Notes under the pieces: model-generated
The model's input: the letters and a program-made list of their open reading frames with translations, nothing else
Told to the model about the DNA's origin: nothing
Databases searched by the model: none
Assembly: GCA_023423675.1 (NCBI GenBank)
Contig: JAFAFD010000126.1
Span: 1 to 10,977, forward strand
Source: Pseudomonadota bacterium
GTDB lineage: Bacteria > Pseudomonadota > Gammaproteobacteria > Xanthomonadales > Xanthomonadaceae
DNA: 10,977 bases
Direction of reading: 5' to 3'
Position numbers and translations under genes: made by a program
Shown: positions 440 to 7,800 of the stretch, piece after piece
How positions within the stretch are numbered: position 1 is the stretch's first letter
Layout: every line of letters begins with the position of its first letter

Positions 440-700
440 ATGCACGCCTACGTCTATAAAAGCCAACTTAAGCCGGACACCTACGTCTATCTCGCCCGTC
501 GTGATGATTTCAGCGCGCTGCCTGCGCCGCTGGTCACCTCGCTGGGTGCGCTGTCGTTCGTCCTCGAAGTGACCCTGGATGCGCAGCGCCGTCTGGCCCA
601 GGCCGACCCGGACAAGGTCCGCAGCGAGCTGACAGAGCGGGGTTTCTACCTGCAGGTGCCGCCGTCGGTGACCAGCATGATGCGGCGCCACTATGACTGA
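440..700 (+). CDS. ycgL: YcgL-domain small protein
   Basis: An 86-aa protein of the YcgL family, small cytoplasmic proteins of unknown biochemical role widespread in Gammaproteobacteria. Recognised from the family pattern: an N-terminal strand AYVYKS, a second strand DTYVYL followed by RRDDFSALP, a central Leu/Val-rich section, then [17 protein letters not shown] near the C-terminus, all collinear with E. coli YcgL (YRSSKRDQTYLYV, KKDDFSRVP, LTEQGYYLQLPPP). It starts at the conserved core without the N-terminal extension that E. coli YcgL carries. The ATG at 440 has only a weak upstream Shine-Dalgarno, but no in-frame start with better support precedes it. The stop TGA (698-700) lies inside the next gene, whose ATG is at 693, so the two are probably translationally coupled. 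Confidence 0.88.
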
Positions 701-3700
701 GCTGTCGCGCCCACGCGCTCTGTCGATCGCCTTCGTTATCGGCGCCGTGCTGGCGCTCGCCTCGGTCGTGGGCGGGCTGCCCGGTGCCGTGCTTGCCGCA
801 CTGGCGCAGCCGGCGTTCGCGCTGGGCGTGTCCTGGTGGCGGCGCAGCCGCACGCTGCAGGCTCCGAAGCTGATCGCACGGCGGGAGCTGCCGGCGTTGG
901 CGGTGCTGTGGGCTGCGGCCCCGGCAGGCCTGGCGCTGCTGCTGGCATGGCCGCTGGCGGCGCTGCGTGACAGCGGCAGCCTGGCCGCCGTGCTCGGCCT
1001 GAGCGTGCTGGTCAGTGCCGGCCTGCTGGCCGCGTGGCGCACCTGGCCGTTGTGGAACGATGTCGAACGCCTCGACGGCAGTCTCGCCCAGCATTGGCAC
1101 GCGCTGGCCGGGCGTGACCTGACCGCCTGGCGTGGCCTGCTGGTGGCGGCGATCGTGGTCGCCCTGGCCGCGCTGATCGTGCTGCCGGCATGGCCGGGCC
1201 TGTTGCCGGAAGGCGCCGGTTGGCCTGCCGCACTGGCCACCCTGGTGCTGTCGCCGGTCCTGCACCTGCTGCTGCAGCGGGTGGCACCGGCGCCGATGGT
1301 CAGCCTGCGCAGCACTACGCAGGACCTGCCCAGCGGCGATGCCGAAGCCCTGTTCAACGCCGCCGCCGAAAGCACGCCGCTGGAAGCGATGGCACCGCAG
1401 GAGCTGACCCCGGCGCTGTACGAAGCCGCGCGCCACGGCCGCATCGACCGCGCGCTGCAGCTGCTGCAGGCCGGCGCCGATCCGCACGCGCTGCCGGACC
1501 CGAACTGGCGCGACCAGCGCAGCCTGGCCGTGCTCGCCGCCGTGCTGCCGGACCTGCGCCTGCTGCGCGAACTGATCGGTCGTGGCGTTGACGTGAATGC
1601 TCCGCACCGTGGCATGACCCCGCTGCTGGCCGCCACGCGCGACAGCTGGCATGGGCGCCCGGAAGCGGTGATGACCCTGCTCGCCAACGGCGCCGATTCG
1701 CGCGCGATGGACAGCGATGGCAATACACCGCTGCACCACGCCGCGCGCAGTTCCGACCCGGGCGTGGCCGCGCTGCTGCGCGATGCCGCCGCCGAGGTGG
1801 ATGCGCTCAACACCGAAGGCTGGTCGCCGCTGGCGGTGGCCTGCCAGGTCGGCAACTGGCGCCTGGCCCGCTTCCTGCTCGAGCGCGGTGCGCGCAGCGA
1901 ACCCAGCGAAGGCACCCCGGTGCTGCTGGCCGCTGCCGCCACCGAGGACGACGATCCGGCCGGCGTGCAGCTGCTGCTCAAGCACAAGGCGCGCGCCGAT
2001 GCGCGCGACCGCCAGCGTCGCAGCGCACTGCACGAAGCCGCCCTGGCCGGCCATGTCGAGATCATCGGCGTGCTGCTGGGTGCCGGCGCCAACCTCGAAG
2101 CGCGCGATGCGCTGGGCCGCACGCCGTGGCTGGAAGCGGCCCGTGCCGGTCGCGCCGCTGTCATCGAACACCTGCTGCCGCACAAGCCGGACCTGGTGGC
2201 GGTCGATGGCGAAGGCCGCAACGCCGTGCTGCTCGCCGCGATGGCCGAAGATGTCTCGCCGCTGCTGGTCAAGCGTCTGGTCGACCTGGGCATCCCCGCC
2301 GATGCAAGCGATCCGCTTGGCCGTCGTGCGGTGGACTACGCCGCCGAAGCCGGGCGCTGGGCGATCGTGGCCCTGCTGGACCCGTCCTATCCGTTGCCGG
2401 CCGCGGTCAGCGATGGCCTGGCCGAACGCGGTGAAGCCGCCAGCGCCAGCGGCCTGCTGCCCGACCGTCCGCCGCTGACCCTGCTGCGCGAAGCGCTGGG
2501 CTTCGGCAATACCGAAGGCATGGCCGCGCTGGCCAGGCTGTGCCAGCCGGAAGAGCTGGGCGGCCTGCTGCTGGACCCTGAACTGGCGCTGGAACCGCGC
2601 GCGGTCGACTGGCTGCTGGGCCATGGCGCCGACCCGTACGTGCGCGACGCCTGTGCCGATACCCCCATGTTCGCCCTGCTGTCGCGCGGCATCGACGCGG
2701 TGCCGGCGCTGCAGGTGATGCTGCAGCGTGGCCTGTCGCCGGCCGGCCGCGGTGGCCTCGCGCGTTTCCTTGCTGCCTGCGCGCAGCACGATCAGGCCGC
2801 GCGCGGCCTGGAACAGCTGGCGCTGGAACTGCTCGAACGCGGCGCCGATCCATTCGCCGCTTCGCCGGCCGGTGATCCGCCGCTGTCGCTGGCGGTGCGC
2901 CTGGGCTGGCTGCGCCTGCAGCAGGCCCTGCTCAATGCCGGTGTCGATCGCGAAGCCCGCGACAGCCACGGCATGACCGCCCTGCACCTGGCCACCGCGC
3001 TGGCCCGCGAAGGCGCGCTGAAGCTGCTGGTGCAGCACGGTGCATCGCCGGAAGCGCGTGCCGCCGATGGCCAGACCCCGCTGGGCGTGGCGCTGTCGAT
3101 CGGCCGCCGCGACCTGGCCGACTGGCTGGATTGGCGGGTGTGGCCGCTGCCGCGCCGCACCCTGCGCGAAAGCGACCTGCCGGCCGCCGCCATGGCCGGT
3201 GACGTCGATGCCGTGCGCCGTTTGAACGATCTCGGCTTCGCCATCGACGCCGTCGATGCGCAGGGCTGCACCGCGCTGCTGCGAGCGGCCGGTGGTGGCC
3301 ATCTGGCGGTGGTCGACCTGCTGCTGGCGCGTGGCGCGGATCCGCAGCATGGCGCGGCCAGTGGCGCGACTCCGCTGTCGGCGGCGGTCAGCATGCGCCA
3401 GGTGGATATCGTCTCGGCCCTGCTCGATGCCGGCGCCCAGCTGGAACACCGCCTGCCGGGCGGGGTGACCGTGCTGATGCTGGCCTCGGCGCTGGGCCTG
3501 CCGGACATCGTCGCGCGTCTGCTCACCGCCGGTGCCGACGTGCACGCCGGCGATGCGCAGCAGCTGGGCCCGCTGCACTGCGCGGCGCTGTATGGCTTCA
3601 GTGCCCGCGACCGTTCGCGCCTGCTGGCCCTGCTGGATACGCTGTTGCTGGCCGGCGCCGAGCCCGACTTGGCCTCGGCCGGTTCGGTCACGCCGCTGCT

Positions 3701-4031
3701 GCTGCTGCTGGGTGCACGCGCCGAGCCGGGCACCGCCTGCGACGAGCAGGTGGTGATGGCTGCGGTGGAGCGCCTGCTGGATGAGGACGTGAGCCTGGAC
3801 GTCCGTGACCCGCGCGGCTTCGGCCCGCTGCACCTGGCCGCCCTGCACGGGCTGCCGCTGCTGGTGCAGCGCCTGCTGCGCGCCGGTGCCGATCCGGAAG
3901 TACGCGACAGCCTCAACCGCAGCCCGCGCGAGATCGCGGTCATGCGCGGCTTCATCGACGTGGCCGGCGAATTCGAACCGCGCGTGCCGGGCGTGTCCTC
4001 GATGGCCCGGTTCCTGCGCGACAACGGCTGA
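693..4031 (+). CDS. Large membrane-anchored ankyrin-repeat protein
   Basis: A 1112-aa protein. Residues 8-195 are hydrophobic and read as about six membrane helices (roughly 8-27, 30-47, 66-90, 95-113, 148-168, 176-194), with Arg-rich loops (WWRRSRTL...IARRE near 48-65; the 114-147 loop) that would be cytoplasmic, placing both ends inside the cell. From about 237 to 1090 there are about 24 ankyrin repeats, some degenerate; clear copies show [60 protein letters not shown] and [25 protein letters not shown]. Ankyrin repeats bind protein partners, so a cytoplasmic scaffold held at the inner membrane is the natural inference. No enzymatic domain is visible. Its ATG overlaps the end of the ycgL gene by 8 bases. 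Function unknown; no effector or secretion signal was seen. GC and codon use match the neighbours, so recent transfer is not suggested. Confidence 0.9.
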
Positions 4032-6012: not shown

Positions 6013-6051
6013 GGGGTCAGATCCCTTTGCGCCGCAAAGGGCTCTGACCCC
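6013..6051 (+). repeat. 39-nt dispersed palindrome, copy 2
   Basis: Left arm GGGGTCAGATCCCTTTGC (6013-6030), loop GCC, right arm GCAAAGGGCTCTGACCCC (6034-6051). Only arm position 10 (T opposite C) is unpaired. Compared with copy 1, arm position 17 is G-C here and C-G there, a compensatory change that keeps the pair. It lies between the candidate promoters of the divergent antiporter and mgtE genes, upstream of both rather than at a gene end. Confidence 0.85.
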
Positions 6052-6082: not shown

Positions 6083-6111
6083 TTGACCAGGCGTGCCGGC
6101 AGGTCCAGACT
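6083..6111 (+). promoter_or_regulatory. Candidate mgtE promoter
   Basis: TTGACC (6083-6088) matches five of six bases of the -35 consensus. At 17-base spacing CAGACT (6106-6111) is a poor -10, with three of six matches. If used, transcription would start near 6118 and give an untranslated leader of about 180 nt, which agrees with the structured leader and the leader ORF downstream. Weak but consistent. Confidence 0.25.
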
Positions 6112-6179
6112 GCCCGCCGCTGCCGGTCGCGCCGTCGTCGAGCGTGTCAGGCAGTACACCCATCCGGAGTCCCCAACCC

Positions 6180-6236
6180 ATGTCCAGCGACAGTAGAAGT
6201 CGACTTCGTTCGACGCCAGCGATGGCTACCGCCTGA
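6180..6236 (+). CDS. Putative 18-codon leader peptide upstream of mgtE
   Basis: ATG 6180 to TGA 6234-6236 encodes MSSDSRSRLRSTPAMATA. GGAG (6166-6169) lies 10 bases upstream, an acceptable Shine-Dalgarno. Codons 5-9 are AGT AGA AGT CGA CTT, all codons expected to be rare in a high-GC genome, which is unlike the neighbouring genes. They end at the base of the long leader helix that starts at 6201, and the stop codon falls in the apical hairpin. A ribosome on this ORF would therefore decide whether the helix forms. This arrangement resembles leader-peptide attenuators, including mgtL/mgtP-type Mg2+ leaders in enterics, but I see no sequence relation to those. Translation is unproven, and so short an ORF can arise by chance; the position and rare codons are the support. 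Confidence 0.4.
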   Translation: MSSDSRSRLRSTPAMATA

Positions 6237-6295
6237 TATCGGGTCGGTTTGCCTGCGTTGGCGTTGCGCGAGGTCGCATCCCCACAAGGCAAGCC
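6201..6295 (+). promoter_or_regulatory. Structured mgtE leader RNA with anti-Shine-Dalgarno element
   Basis: Bases 6201-6221 pair with 6256-6276: 20 of 21 positions pair, with one T/C mismatch (6210/6267). Four pairs are G.U wobbles, so the helix is sound only in + strand RNA, the mgtE direction. Inside it, 6228-6235 pairs with 6240-6248 (one bulged base, 6244) around an ATAT loop. Separately, 6246-6254 (GGTTTGCCT) is complementary over 9 bases to 6287-6295 (AGGCAAGCC), which includes the mgtE Shine-Dalgarno AAGG (6286-6289) and ends one base before the ATG. With the long helix formed, that pairing would be a pseudoknot; without it, a simple hairpin hiding the ribosome site. A regulatory RNA for mgtE is inferred. 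No resemblance to the M-box was recognised. Confidence 0.6.
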
Positions 6296-6296
6296 C

Positions 6297-7667
6297 ATGA
6301 ACCAGAAGCAATTGCTGCGCCCGGTGGCCGACGCCGCTGCCCTCGCCGCACCCCTGGCCAGCTACAACACCGCCGACGCGGTGGAGTTCCTCAACACGCT
6401 CGACCTGGAGCGCGCCGCCGAAACGCTGGCCGCGCTGTCGCTGCCGCGCGCGGTGAAGATGCTCGAAGCGCCCGAACTGCACCGCAGTGGCGAGCTGGTG
6501 GCCGCATTGCCGCCGGCCCGCGCCGCCGCGCTGCTGGGGCTGATGGCCGACGACCGCGCCACCGACATCGTCCACGAGCTGGACGAGGAAGAACGCGCGC
6601 GGCTGATCCCGCTGCTGGGCAGCGATGCCCGCCAGGCCATCCAGACGCTGCTGAGCTACCCGGCAAACACCGCCGGCGCGCTGATGACCACCGAGTTCGT
6701 CGCCGTGCCCGCCACCTGGACCGTGGCCCAGACCCTGCAGCACATCCGCCAGGTCGAGCGTACCCGCGAGACCGTGTACGCGATCTACGTGCTCGATCCG
6801 GCCAGCCAGCAGCTGCAGCAGGTGGTGACCATGCGCCGGCTGATCACCGGCCTGCCGGAGGAGTCGATCCTCGACGTGGCCCAGGTCAATCCGCCGGTCA
6901 CCGTCGATGCCCTGCTGGACCAGGAAGAAGTGGCGCGGCTGATCCGCCGCCACGACCTGCTGGCCATTCCGGTGGTGGACGCGCAGCAGCACCTGCTGGG
7001 CATCGTCACCGTCGACGACGTGCTCGATGCGCTCATCGAGGAATCGACCGAGGATGCGCACAAGTTCGGCGGCATGGAAGCGCTGGACAAGCCGTACATG
7101 CAGATCGGTTTCTTCGAGATGCTGCGCAAGCGCGCCGGCTGGCTGAGCGTGCTGTTCCTCGGCGAGATGCTCACCGCCAGCGCGATGCAGCACTACGAGG
7201 ACGAGCTGGCGCGCGCGGTGGTGCTGACCCTGTTCATTCCGCTCATCATGAGCTCGGGCGGCAACTCCGGTTCGCAGGCCACTTCGTTGCTGATCCGCAG
7301 CCTGGCCCTGCGCGAGCTGCGCCTGAGCGACTGGTGGAAGGTGGCGCTGCGCGAAGTGCCGACCGGCATGGTGCTGGGCGCCATCCTCGGCTGCCTGGCC
7401 ATCGTGCGCATCGTCATCTGGCAGCTGGGCGGCCTGCACGACTACGGCGAGCACTGGATCCTGCTGGCCATCACCATCGGCGCGGCCCTGGTGGGCATCG
7501 TCACGTTCGGCTCGCTGTCCGGCTCGATGCTGCCCTTCATCCTCAAGCGCCTGGGCTTCGACCCGGCCAGTGCCTCGGCACCGTTCGTGGCCACCCTCGT
7601 GGACGTGACCGGCCTGGTGATCTACTTCAGCATCGCCGCCCTCATCCTGCACGGCACCCTGCTGTAA
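6297..7667 (+). CDS. mgtE: Magnesium transporter MgtE
   Basis: A 456-aa inner-membrane Mg2+ channel/transporter. Domains in order: a helical MgtE_N cytosolic domain (about 1-120; ADDRATDIVHELDEEERARLIPLL), a pair of CBS domains (about 126-250; IPVVDAQQHLLGIVTVDDVLDAL ends the second), a plug-helix region, then the five-helix membrane domain (about 280-456). The family signature IMSSGGNSGSQATSLLIRSLAL is present (GGNSGSQ 321-327). The final helix carries PFVATLVDVTGLVIYF, with D436 at the place of the selectivity Asp of Thermus MgtE. In that family the N and CBS domains bind Mg2+ and close the pore when cytosolic Mg2+ is high. The ATG at 6297 is chosen because AAGG lies 7 bases upstream and the length matches the usual ~450 aa; a TTG at 6249 would add 16 residues that overlap the leader helix. 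Stop TAA. Confidence 0.95.
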   Translation: MNQKQLLRPVADAAALAAPLASYNTADAVEFLNTLDLERAAETLAALSLPRAVKMLEAPELHRSGELVAALPPARAAALLGLMADDRATDIVHELDEEERARLIPLLGSDARQAIQTLLSYPANTAGALMTTEFVAVPATWTVAQTLQHIRQVERTRETVYAIYVLDPASQQLQQVVTMRRLITGLPEESILDVAQVNPPVTVDALLDQEEVARLIRRHDLLAIPVVDAQQHLLGIVTVDDVLDALIEESTEDAHKFGGMEALDKPYMQIGFFEMLRKRAGWLSVLFLGEMLTASAMQHYEDELARAVVLTLFIPLIMSSGGNSGSQATSLLIRSLALRELRLSDWWKVALREVPTGMVLGAILGCLAIVRIVIWQLGGLHDYGEHWILLAITIGAALVGIVTFGSLSGSMLPFILKRLGFDPASASAPFVATLVDVTGLVIYFSIAALILHGTLL

Positions 7668-7705
7668 CAAATACGTATGGCCTGGGGTCGGATCCCCGTG
7701 CTCTG

Positions 7706-7729
7706 GTAGGTGCCCACCTTGGTGGGCAC
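7706..7729 (+). repeat. SMAG-type (GTAG) REP element, single copy
   Basis: GTAG (7706-7709) is followed directly by GTGCCCACC (7710-7718), TT, and GGTGGGCAC (7721-7729), a perfect inverted repeat. The 24-bp length and the GTAG head fit the SMAG elements of S. maltophilia, a REP family presumably mobilised by REP-associated tyrosine transposases (RAYTs). It lies inside the composite repeat. Confidence 0.8.
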
Positions 7730-7743
7730 ACAAAGGTCATTCA

Positions 7744-7782
7744 GGGGTCAGAGCCCTTTCCTGCGGAAAGGGATCCGACCCC
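7744..7782 (-). repeat. 39-nt dispersed palindrome, copy 3 (reverse orientation)
   Basis: GGGGTCAGAGCCCTTTCC (7744-7761), loop TGC, GGAAAGGGATCCGACCCC (7765-7782). Read on the minus strand, the arms are identical to copy 1 and only the loop differs (GCA against AAC). It has the same two non-Watson-Crick positions (7 and 10) as copy 1. Confidence 0.85.
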
Positions 7783-7800
7783 GTCGCCGACCCCATCGCC
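7777..7800. repeat. Tandem 12-bp duplication
   Basis: GACCCCGTCGCC (7777-7788) is followed at once by GACCCCATCGCC (7789-7800), differing at one base. The first unit begins inside the end of palindrome copy 3, so the duplication includes the element border. It lies 24 bases before the acetyltransferase start. Confidence 0.7.

Follow-up and report, generated by a model that had tools for sequence, protein, structure and literature searches.

A short upstream reading frame and mutually exclusive helices before mgtE suggest a ribosome-read leader in Xanthomonadaceae and some Alphaproteobacteria

The window, by which we mean the whole analyzed stretch of 10,977 nucleotides from a Xanthomonadaceae bacterium (contig JAFAFD010000126.1), carries at positions 6297..7667 of its forward strand, on which the leader elements described below also lie, the gene of the magnesium transporter MgtE. 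This identity, assumed in the original prediction, is borne out by the family model TIGR00400 (351 bits, cutoff 233), and the protein contains the domains PF03448, PF00571 and PF01769. Upstream of mgtE lies a short open reading frame of 18 codons (uORF, 6180..6236, peptide MSSDSRSRLRSTPAMATA, stop TGA), which had been overlooked before. It is preceded by a Shine-Dalgarno (SD) sequence GGAG at 6166..6169, ten bases 5' of its ATG, and by a predicted promoter with the -35 element TTGACC (6083..6088) and the weak -10 element CAGACT (6106..6111), which would place the transcription start near 6118. A generic promoter scan of the window gave nothing and thus missed this -10 element. Repeats in inverted orientation, of type GGGGTCAGA/TCTGACCCC, flank mgtE on both sides (6013-6051 and, found by eye, 7684-7785), and the window also contains an ORF of 1112 amino acids (693-4031) with several ankyrin-repeat model matches, all under the curated cutoffs.

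The RNA before mgtE can adopt alternative pairings. Helix A joins 6201..6221, corresponding to uORF codons 8 to 14, with 6256..6276; 16 Watson-Crick and four G.U pairs in 21 positions with one mismatch are exactly what had been predicted, and as shuffling the 3' strand 200 times never gave an equally strong helix, it indeed lies beyond chance. Its entire 5' arm is contained in the uORF. Helix B joins 6246..6254, the anti-SD strand, with 6287..6295, which includes the mgtE SD, by eight Watson-Crick pairs and one G.U pair, and it ends one base 5' of the mgtE ATG, again as described originally. The caution that helix B alone might be a product of chance was justified for the single sequence of the window, where 18 of 200 shuffles were equally strong. 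A further stem that had also escaped notice, P2 (6224..6235 with 6240..6253), pairs the uORF end with the anti-SD strand as long as helix A is formed, according to the minimum free energy (MFE) structure. The fold of 6180-6310 amounts to -55.3 kcal/mol (z = -3.6), which was reached by none of 200 dinucleotide shuffles. When the uORF is masked, the MFE structure is the closed form with helix B, inside which an imperfect local hairpin (6257..6285, end stem 6265-6268/6275-6278) is formed. The two helices had been regarded as entangled, with a pseudoknot as one option. Both proved genuine and conserved, and each excludes the other; a pseudoknot is unlikely because a loop of 10 nt would have to bridge a helix of 21 bp.

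The uORF is a constant companion of this transporter gene in the family. In the genus of the window, 91 genomes were searched and the upstream region was read in all 87 with an orthologous MgtE, and in the family set of 395 genomes, 88 encoded MgtE at E <= 1e-100, for which all 56 outside the genus were read. A uORF with an ATG start was present in 142 of the 143 Xanthomonadaceae genomes bearing this MgtE. In the one remaining genome (L185) the ATG is replaced by TAG with the frame kept, which provides a natural test case; this leader was left out, and the 142 others together with the window form the set of 143 leaders considered in the following. All of their uORFs are open; 140 are 18 codons and three are 19 codons long, all end with TGA, and 139 have an SD-like motif. 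The promoter TTGACC-N17-CAGACT is found 5' of the uORF in 121 leaders, and a looser pattern, TTGAC[CG]-N17/18 followed by a -10-like hexamer, in 139, both counted without a chance control. The predicted promoter lies upstream of helix A, and none of the observations that the original prediction had named as speaking against it was found.

Conservation within the uORF is concentrated in codons 1-8 (6180..6203), which in the window read ATG TCC AGC GAC AGT AGA AGT CGA and include, judged by codon counts and usage, the rare codons AGT(5), AGA(6), AGT(7) and CGA(8). Codon 4 is GAC in all 143 leaders and codon 5 is AGT in 134, and in 142 of them codon 8 is a rare arginine codon (CGA 102, AGA 40), while of the 246 arginine codons that five of the window's genes contain, one is CGA or AGA. 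Helix A starts at codon 8, at the very end of this rare-codon block. The C-terminal residues differ between genera, and Asp4 is the sole conserved acidic residue of the peptide. Among 26 diverse uORFs, substitutions amount to 0.46, 0.30 and 0.30 at codon positions 1, 2 and 3, so that the third-position excess that is the usual signature of coding sequence is absent, and the conservation may partly act at the RNA level. That the uORF is translated is nevertheless suggested by its conserved start codon, SD, stop codon, frame and constant length, and by codon 8, in which C and A replace each other without changing the amino acid. A short, presumably translated uORF before a magnesium transporter gene is present and conserved.

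The original prediction had proposed to compare the mgtE leaders of relatives, and this comparison showed that both helices are retained and that compensatory changes occur in helix B. In alignment A1 (87 sequences reduced to 72 distinct leaders of the genus, with L087 and 15 identical rows dropped, and with the row of L008 off by 3 nt), helix B pairs in 90.6% of the cells, compared with at most 47.7% for slid versions of the helix. Both sides are changed in 31 of these cells against a shuffled mean of 10.6, a value reached in none of 500 shuffles; the count of doubly changed pairs in helix B is unremarkable (158 of 500 shuffles). Helix A core and P2 pair in 98.0% of the A1 cells against a shuffled mean of 97.1, and five of their pairs show double changes, which occurred in four of 500 shuffles. 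No pair counts were taken on the MAFFT alignment A2, which puts the Xanthomonas anti-SD in the wrong place. Typical helix B variants are GTTTGCC/GGCAAGC, GTTCGCC/GGCGAAC, GCTCGCC/GGCGAGC and GGCTGCC/GGCAGCC, and in the alignment, leaders L084 and L085 deviate from the common type concertedly in three parts, the end of the uORF, the anti-SD and the strand with the SD. In L082, L084 and L085, a small hairpin GCCGACC...GGTCGGC is inserted in the loop of helix B about 20 nt 5' of mgtE, with the pairing intact.

Helix arms were also exchanged between 22 groups of leaders. In 20 of the 22 groups, the own helix A exceeds the average swapped helix in strength (-41.3 vs -33.6 kcal/mol, Wilcoxon 1.6e-5), and it is the best among all swaps in only three; the own helix B is stronger than the average swap in 17 groups (-18.6 vs -15.6, Wilcoxon 7e-4) and weaker in five. 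Shuffles of the 3' strand are beaten at the 5% level by helix A in 18 groups, with four failing, and by helix B in 17, the window's own group being one of the five that fail. Across 139 unique leaders of the two lineages discussed below, the longest own stem measures 7.65 compared with 6.42 for swapped ones, a difference whose significance is overstated by kinship. The sequence around helix A is mostly rewritten among the relatives, with start codon, SD, stop codon, frame and length of the uORF kept, and conserved stretches beyond the uORF start, the uORF stop and the anti-SD/SD strands were not found. The anti-SD starts 3-19 nt past the uORF stop in 27 diverse leaders, and 7-13 nt past it in 23 of them.

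Rfam models gave no match at gathering score, whether in the window, in five relatives or in six loci from alphaproteobacteria, and nothing overlapping 6180-6296 even at E values up to 10. The leader likewise has no M-box match among these models, so that the view that it is not an M-box holds. None of the 395 family genomes had more than one strong match to our model R1, unlike what the many copies of a dispersed intergenic repeat would give. Second R1 matches in a few Stenotrophomonas genomes were much weaker (E 6e-7 to 0.07) or lay on the opposite strand at the same place; the five that were fetched, L138-L142, have no adjoining MgtE and were taken to be unrelated or due to chance, and the weak matches elsewhere, L136, L137, L146 and L148-L156, with no MgtE alongside, were taken in the same way. 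Four of the former (L138, L139, L140 and L141, ~1000-1126 as oriented) are mutually similar and carry a strong inverted pairing that precedes a start codon. With the helices conserved, compensatory changes present and no Rfam match, the central claim of the original prediction, a switch capable of hiding the ribosome site of mgtE, has good support.

Models of folding indicate how such a switch might work. In the free leader of the window, helix A and P2 are predicted to stand and the SD to be partly open, and when the uORF is masked helix B forms and the modeled SD accessibility falls from 0.46 to 0.01. Over 116 distinct leaders, the same masking lowers the modeled mean from 0.35 to 0.13, with a reduction in 103 leaders and one of more than 0.3 in 37. 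Ribosome positions were modeled on random samples of at most 25 sequences per group, from which 16 sequences without a 6-bp helix B were excluded, an exclusion that does not signify absence as the search window misses SDs directly at the ATG. In Stenotrophomonas (24 sequences), the modeled unpaired fraction of the SD strand is 0.47-0.48 as long as the ribosome has not passed codon 8; with the ribosome further on, it is 0.08 and 0.03 at codons 11 and 14 and 0.18 at the stop. The corresponding values for Xanthomonas (25 sequences) are 0.18 free, 0.22 and 0.13 at codons 5 and 8, 0.03 at codons 11-14 and 0.05 at the stop, and for other Xanthomonadaceae (nine sequences) 0.18 free, 0.32, 0.14, 0.09 and 0.06 at codons 5, 8, 11 and 14, and 0.07 at the stop. 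For 21 alphaproteobacterial sequences they are 0.34 free, 0.40, 0.26, 0.22 and 0.19 at the same codons, and 0.27 at the stop. With an alternative SD definition, the values of Xanthomonas and the other genera are flat at 0.2-0.3, and in these the equilibrium fold often prefers helix B without any ribosome. As modeled, the switch logic is clear in the window's genus, weaker elsewhere and weak in the alphaproteobacteria.

The leader is not confined to the Xanthomonadaceae, as had at first appeared. A scan for the codon pattern of the uORF in a collection of species genomes, described as comprising 84,980 species, returned at least 118 stretches, and the 80 listed comprise 22 from Xanthomonadaceae, 21 of them with MgtE and one (L270) cut at the locus end, and 58 from elsewhere. 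The names of 57 of these 58 belong, as we take it, to Alphaproteobacteria, among them Rhizobium, Methylobacterium, Ancylobacter, Mesorhizobium, Brucella, Caulobacter and others, and one is titled just Proteobacterium. Codons 3, 4, 5 and 8 of these loci were fixed by the search pattern and have no value as evidence. Among the 58 matches listed, ORF length ranges over 14-25 codons, with 33 ORFs of exactly 18, and the stop is TGA in 55 and TAG in three. MgtE follows the uORF in 45 of them, 43 by BLAST and additionally L280 and L288, and where at least 300 residues were aligned (36 of the 43 BLAST cases) it is 59-66% identical to the MgtE of the window. The anti-SD/SD layout recurs, for example as GGCTCGCC...GGCGAGCC, and helix B exceeds 95% of shuffles in 43 of the 58 listed loci and does not in the other 15. 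For one locus, L267, the mgtE start was wrongly chosen in this shuffle analysis, in the ribosome-position models and in the comparison of own and swapped stems.

Samples were also drawn around G981, the Rhizobium altiplani genome of locus L254, which was chosen because the leader is present. Of 121 genomes sampled from its order, six contained the pattern and nine this MgtE, the six being all within the nine and each pattern lying directly 5' of MgtE. The other three MgtE genes are preceded by a variant uORF, recognized by eye; residue 3 is Gly in two of these uORFs and Arg8 is missing from one, so that a uORF stands before MgtE in nine of nine cases, or in eight of eight without the seed genome. 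In an even sample of the class the pattern search was positive in one of 289 genomes, G981 itself, and the leader is therefore not general in Alphaproteobacteria. No such uORF with an SD-like motif was found before 40 outgroup MgtE-type loci (at most ~40% identity, two with less than 220 nt of upstream sequence). As the other sampled gammaproteobacterial MgtE-type proteins are at most ~40% identical, MgtE was, judging from these sequences, probably exchanged together with its leader between the two lineages.

In some of the matches listed, other genes stand behind the leader. Seven encode small proteins that by eye appear to have a single membrane span (L258, L273, L282, L299, L304, L316 and L317); they have 50-93 amino acids, and all but L273 possess a V-F-x-P-[IV]-like motif in the span. 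The five that were scanned against Pfam (L258, L273, L282, L299 and L316) had no match, and we regard the leader-linked small proteins as candidates for Mg2+-linked proteins. At L299:4781-6018, leader, small membrane protein and a CorA gene (PF01544) follow in a row. DUF1003 proteins (PF06210) are encoded behind the leader at L294:3026-3586 and L308:1456-2004, which suggests a Mg2+ link for DUF1003. One ABC permease (L315) completes this picture, with L292 (at a contig end), L302 and L307 unclear. The theme of magnesium is hence met twice, with the uORF before MgtE and before the operon of a small protein and CorA.

Taking these findings together, we think that the leader is probably a translational attenuator of mgtE that is read by the ribosome. 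The comparison shows that codons 8-18 can pair with downstream RNA as helix A and with the anti-SD as P2, that the alternative partner of the anti-SD is the mgtE SD in helix B, and that these conserved pairings are mutually exclusive. A ribosome that proceeds beyond about codon 8 would break helix A and P2, and the released anti-SD would close the mgtE start (OFF). If the ribosome is slowed or lost in codons 2-8, or never started, helix A and P2 would stand and mgtE would be open (ON). The presumed slow block consists of codons 2-8 with their rare codons, encoding M-S/P-S-D-S-x-S/P-R. Low Mg2+ would cause an early stalling or drop-off of the ribosome, and the importer would be made when Mg2+ is short, as suggested by the gene context and by mgtL and corL. 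The presumed sign of the control, with uORF translation closing mgtE, is derived from the pairing logic and from these two known leaders, and Mg2+ as the presumed signal from the gene context. The short distance between the uORF stop and the anti-SD is relevant here, as a ribosome parked at the stop could block helix B, which would give the opposite sign.

This last point leads to an activating mechanism, in which a ribosome stalled at or near the TGA by an arrest peptide blocks helix A, covers part of the anti-SD and opens mgtE. In the 27 diverse leaders the anti-SD does begin approximately where a ribosome would have its leading edge when the stop codon occupies its A site, and moving this edge 3-6 nt further raises the modeled accessibility in Stenotrophomonas from 0.28 to 0.46-0.51. 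However, a C-terminus that varies between genera behind a conserved N-terminal block is the opposite of what a C-terminal arrest peptide should show, and we consider this mechanism unlikely. The original prediction had left open whether metal or the ribosome is sensed, and since the conserved uORF contains the 5' arm of helix A, the ribosome option is favored and an RNA that binds a metal less so. Strong nucleotide conservation, switch-like helices and the transporter context would all fit a metal- or metabolite-binding riboswitch with an incidental or secondary uORF, and the Thioalkalivibrio 'mgtE motif' is rated as a strong riboswitch candidate in the sections of PMC11109978 covered here. 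Yet the uORF has been kept in all its translational features while the surroundings of helix A were rewritten, and besides the uORF start and stop and the anti-SD/SD there is neither a further conserved stretch nor an Rfam match, so that we hold a riboswitch to be improbable.

The rare arginine codon 8 of nearly all leaders could alternatively indicate an amino-acid attenuator, or a general sensor of translation speed that responds, for example, to the arginine or tRNA supply and stands before mgtE by chance. A proposal that a uORF of S. meliloti reports ribosome availability, made in the part of PMC12218461 considered, lends this some plausibility. The residue table of 26 aligned uORFs contains, by eye, no run of a single amino acid, and behind the 58 listed loci outside the family, where MgtE prevails, no recognized biosynthesis gene was found (three unclear). 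CGA and AGA are moreover decoded by different tRNAs, which counts against an arginine attenuator, and we regard this alternative as very improbable. A functionless chance hairpin or intergenic repeat, finally, might be suspected on account of other inverted repeats nearby, such as that at 6013-6051. It is contradicted already by the conservation of helices and uORF, and also by the family-wide synteny, by the one strong match per genome that stands before mgtE where fetched and by the conservation in a second class, and it can be practically dismissed.

The ribosome-read attenuator that we prefer resembles known systems. The mgtL leader of mgtA in Escherichia coli and Salmonella is likewise a short uORF with alternative leader structures before the gene of a Mg2+ importer, and it has, as described in the portion of PMC11282234 used here, an early Asp at residue 4 as in the present uORF, its EPDP motif containing Glu2 and Asp4. 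According to the same portion, efficient translation of mgtL leads to the OFF state and drop-off at low Mg2+ to the ON state (PMC11282234). It differs in serving the ATP-dependent MgtA by Rho termination and in its EPDP motif, whereas the leader of the window pairs the SD itself and its peptide lacks an EPDP-type destabilizing motif with two acidic residues; a sequence relation between the two was not apparent by eye. The corL leader of corA in the same enteric bacteria is also a uORF before a Mg2+ transporter gene, and repression accompanies its efficient translation (PMC11552253, in part). Compared on the basis of this partial text, corL differs by its UUG start codon, its link to Rho and its other peptide and RNA (PMC11552253). 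By analogy, the leader may act like mgtL and corL, without a demonstrable relation to them.

The nearest described element, as far as its description in the covered sections of PMC11109978 allows comparison, is the mgtE motif SRC-65-1 of Thioalkalivibrio, which also stands before mgtE and in which a large imperfect stem has the SD and the AUG at its base. In these sections it is known only from Thioalkalivibrio and is treated as a riboswitch candidate, with no uORF named (PMC11109978). The M-box in its M. tuberculosis form with uORFs is a further Mg2+-related leader with anti-SD/anti-anti-SD pairing (PMC12810186, in part), from which the leader of the window differs in having no M-box match. 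Translated 5'-UTR ORFs are reported by ribosome profiling of S. meliloti, in supplementary tables (PMC10117765, in part). A description of the present leader was not found among the titles and abstract openings listed from open-access literature, a scope outside which supplements, preprints and most subscription papers lie, and this manner of controlling magnesium uptake through the ribosome is apparently undescribed. The leader peptides of Mg2+ uptake known to us, mgtL and corL, were described in enteric bacteria.

More tentatively, and with doubt still slightly outweighing conviction, we suggest that the M-[PS]-S-D-S-x-S-R leaders of about 18 codons are a shared ribosome-based Mg2+ sensor of Alphaproteobacteria and Xanthomonadaceae that goes with one MgtE clade and marks a magnesium regulon, to which the operon of small membrane protein and CorA, DUF1003 and the single-span proteins would belong. 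If this holds, the leader points to new proteins of magnesium homeostasis, and it could be used as a marker for further magnesium genes. Compared with mgtL and corL, the attenuator proposed here would combine another peptide and another transporter family with direct pairing of the start site, in two proteobacterial classes, and its conserved rare-codon block is a short, testable element. If the proposal is true, the reading of Mg2+ through the progress of the ribosome would not be a peculiarity of enteric bacteria, and would have arisen or spread more than once.
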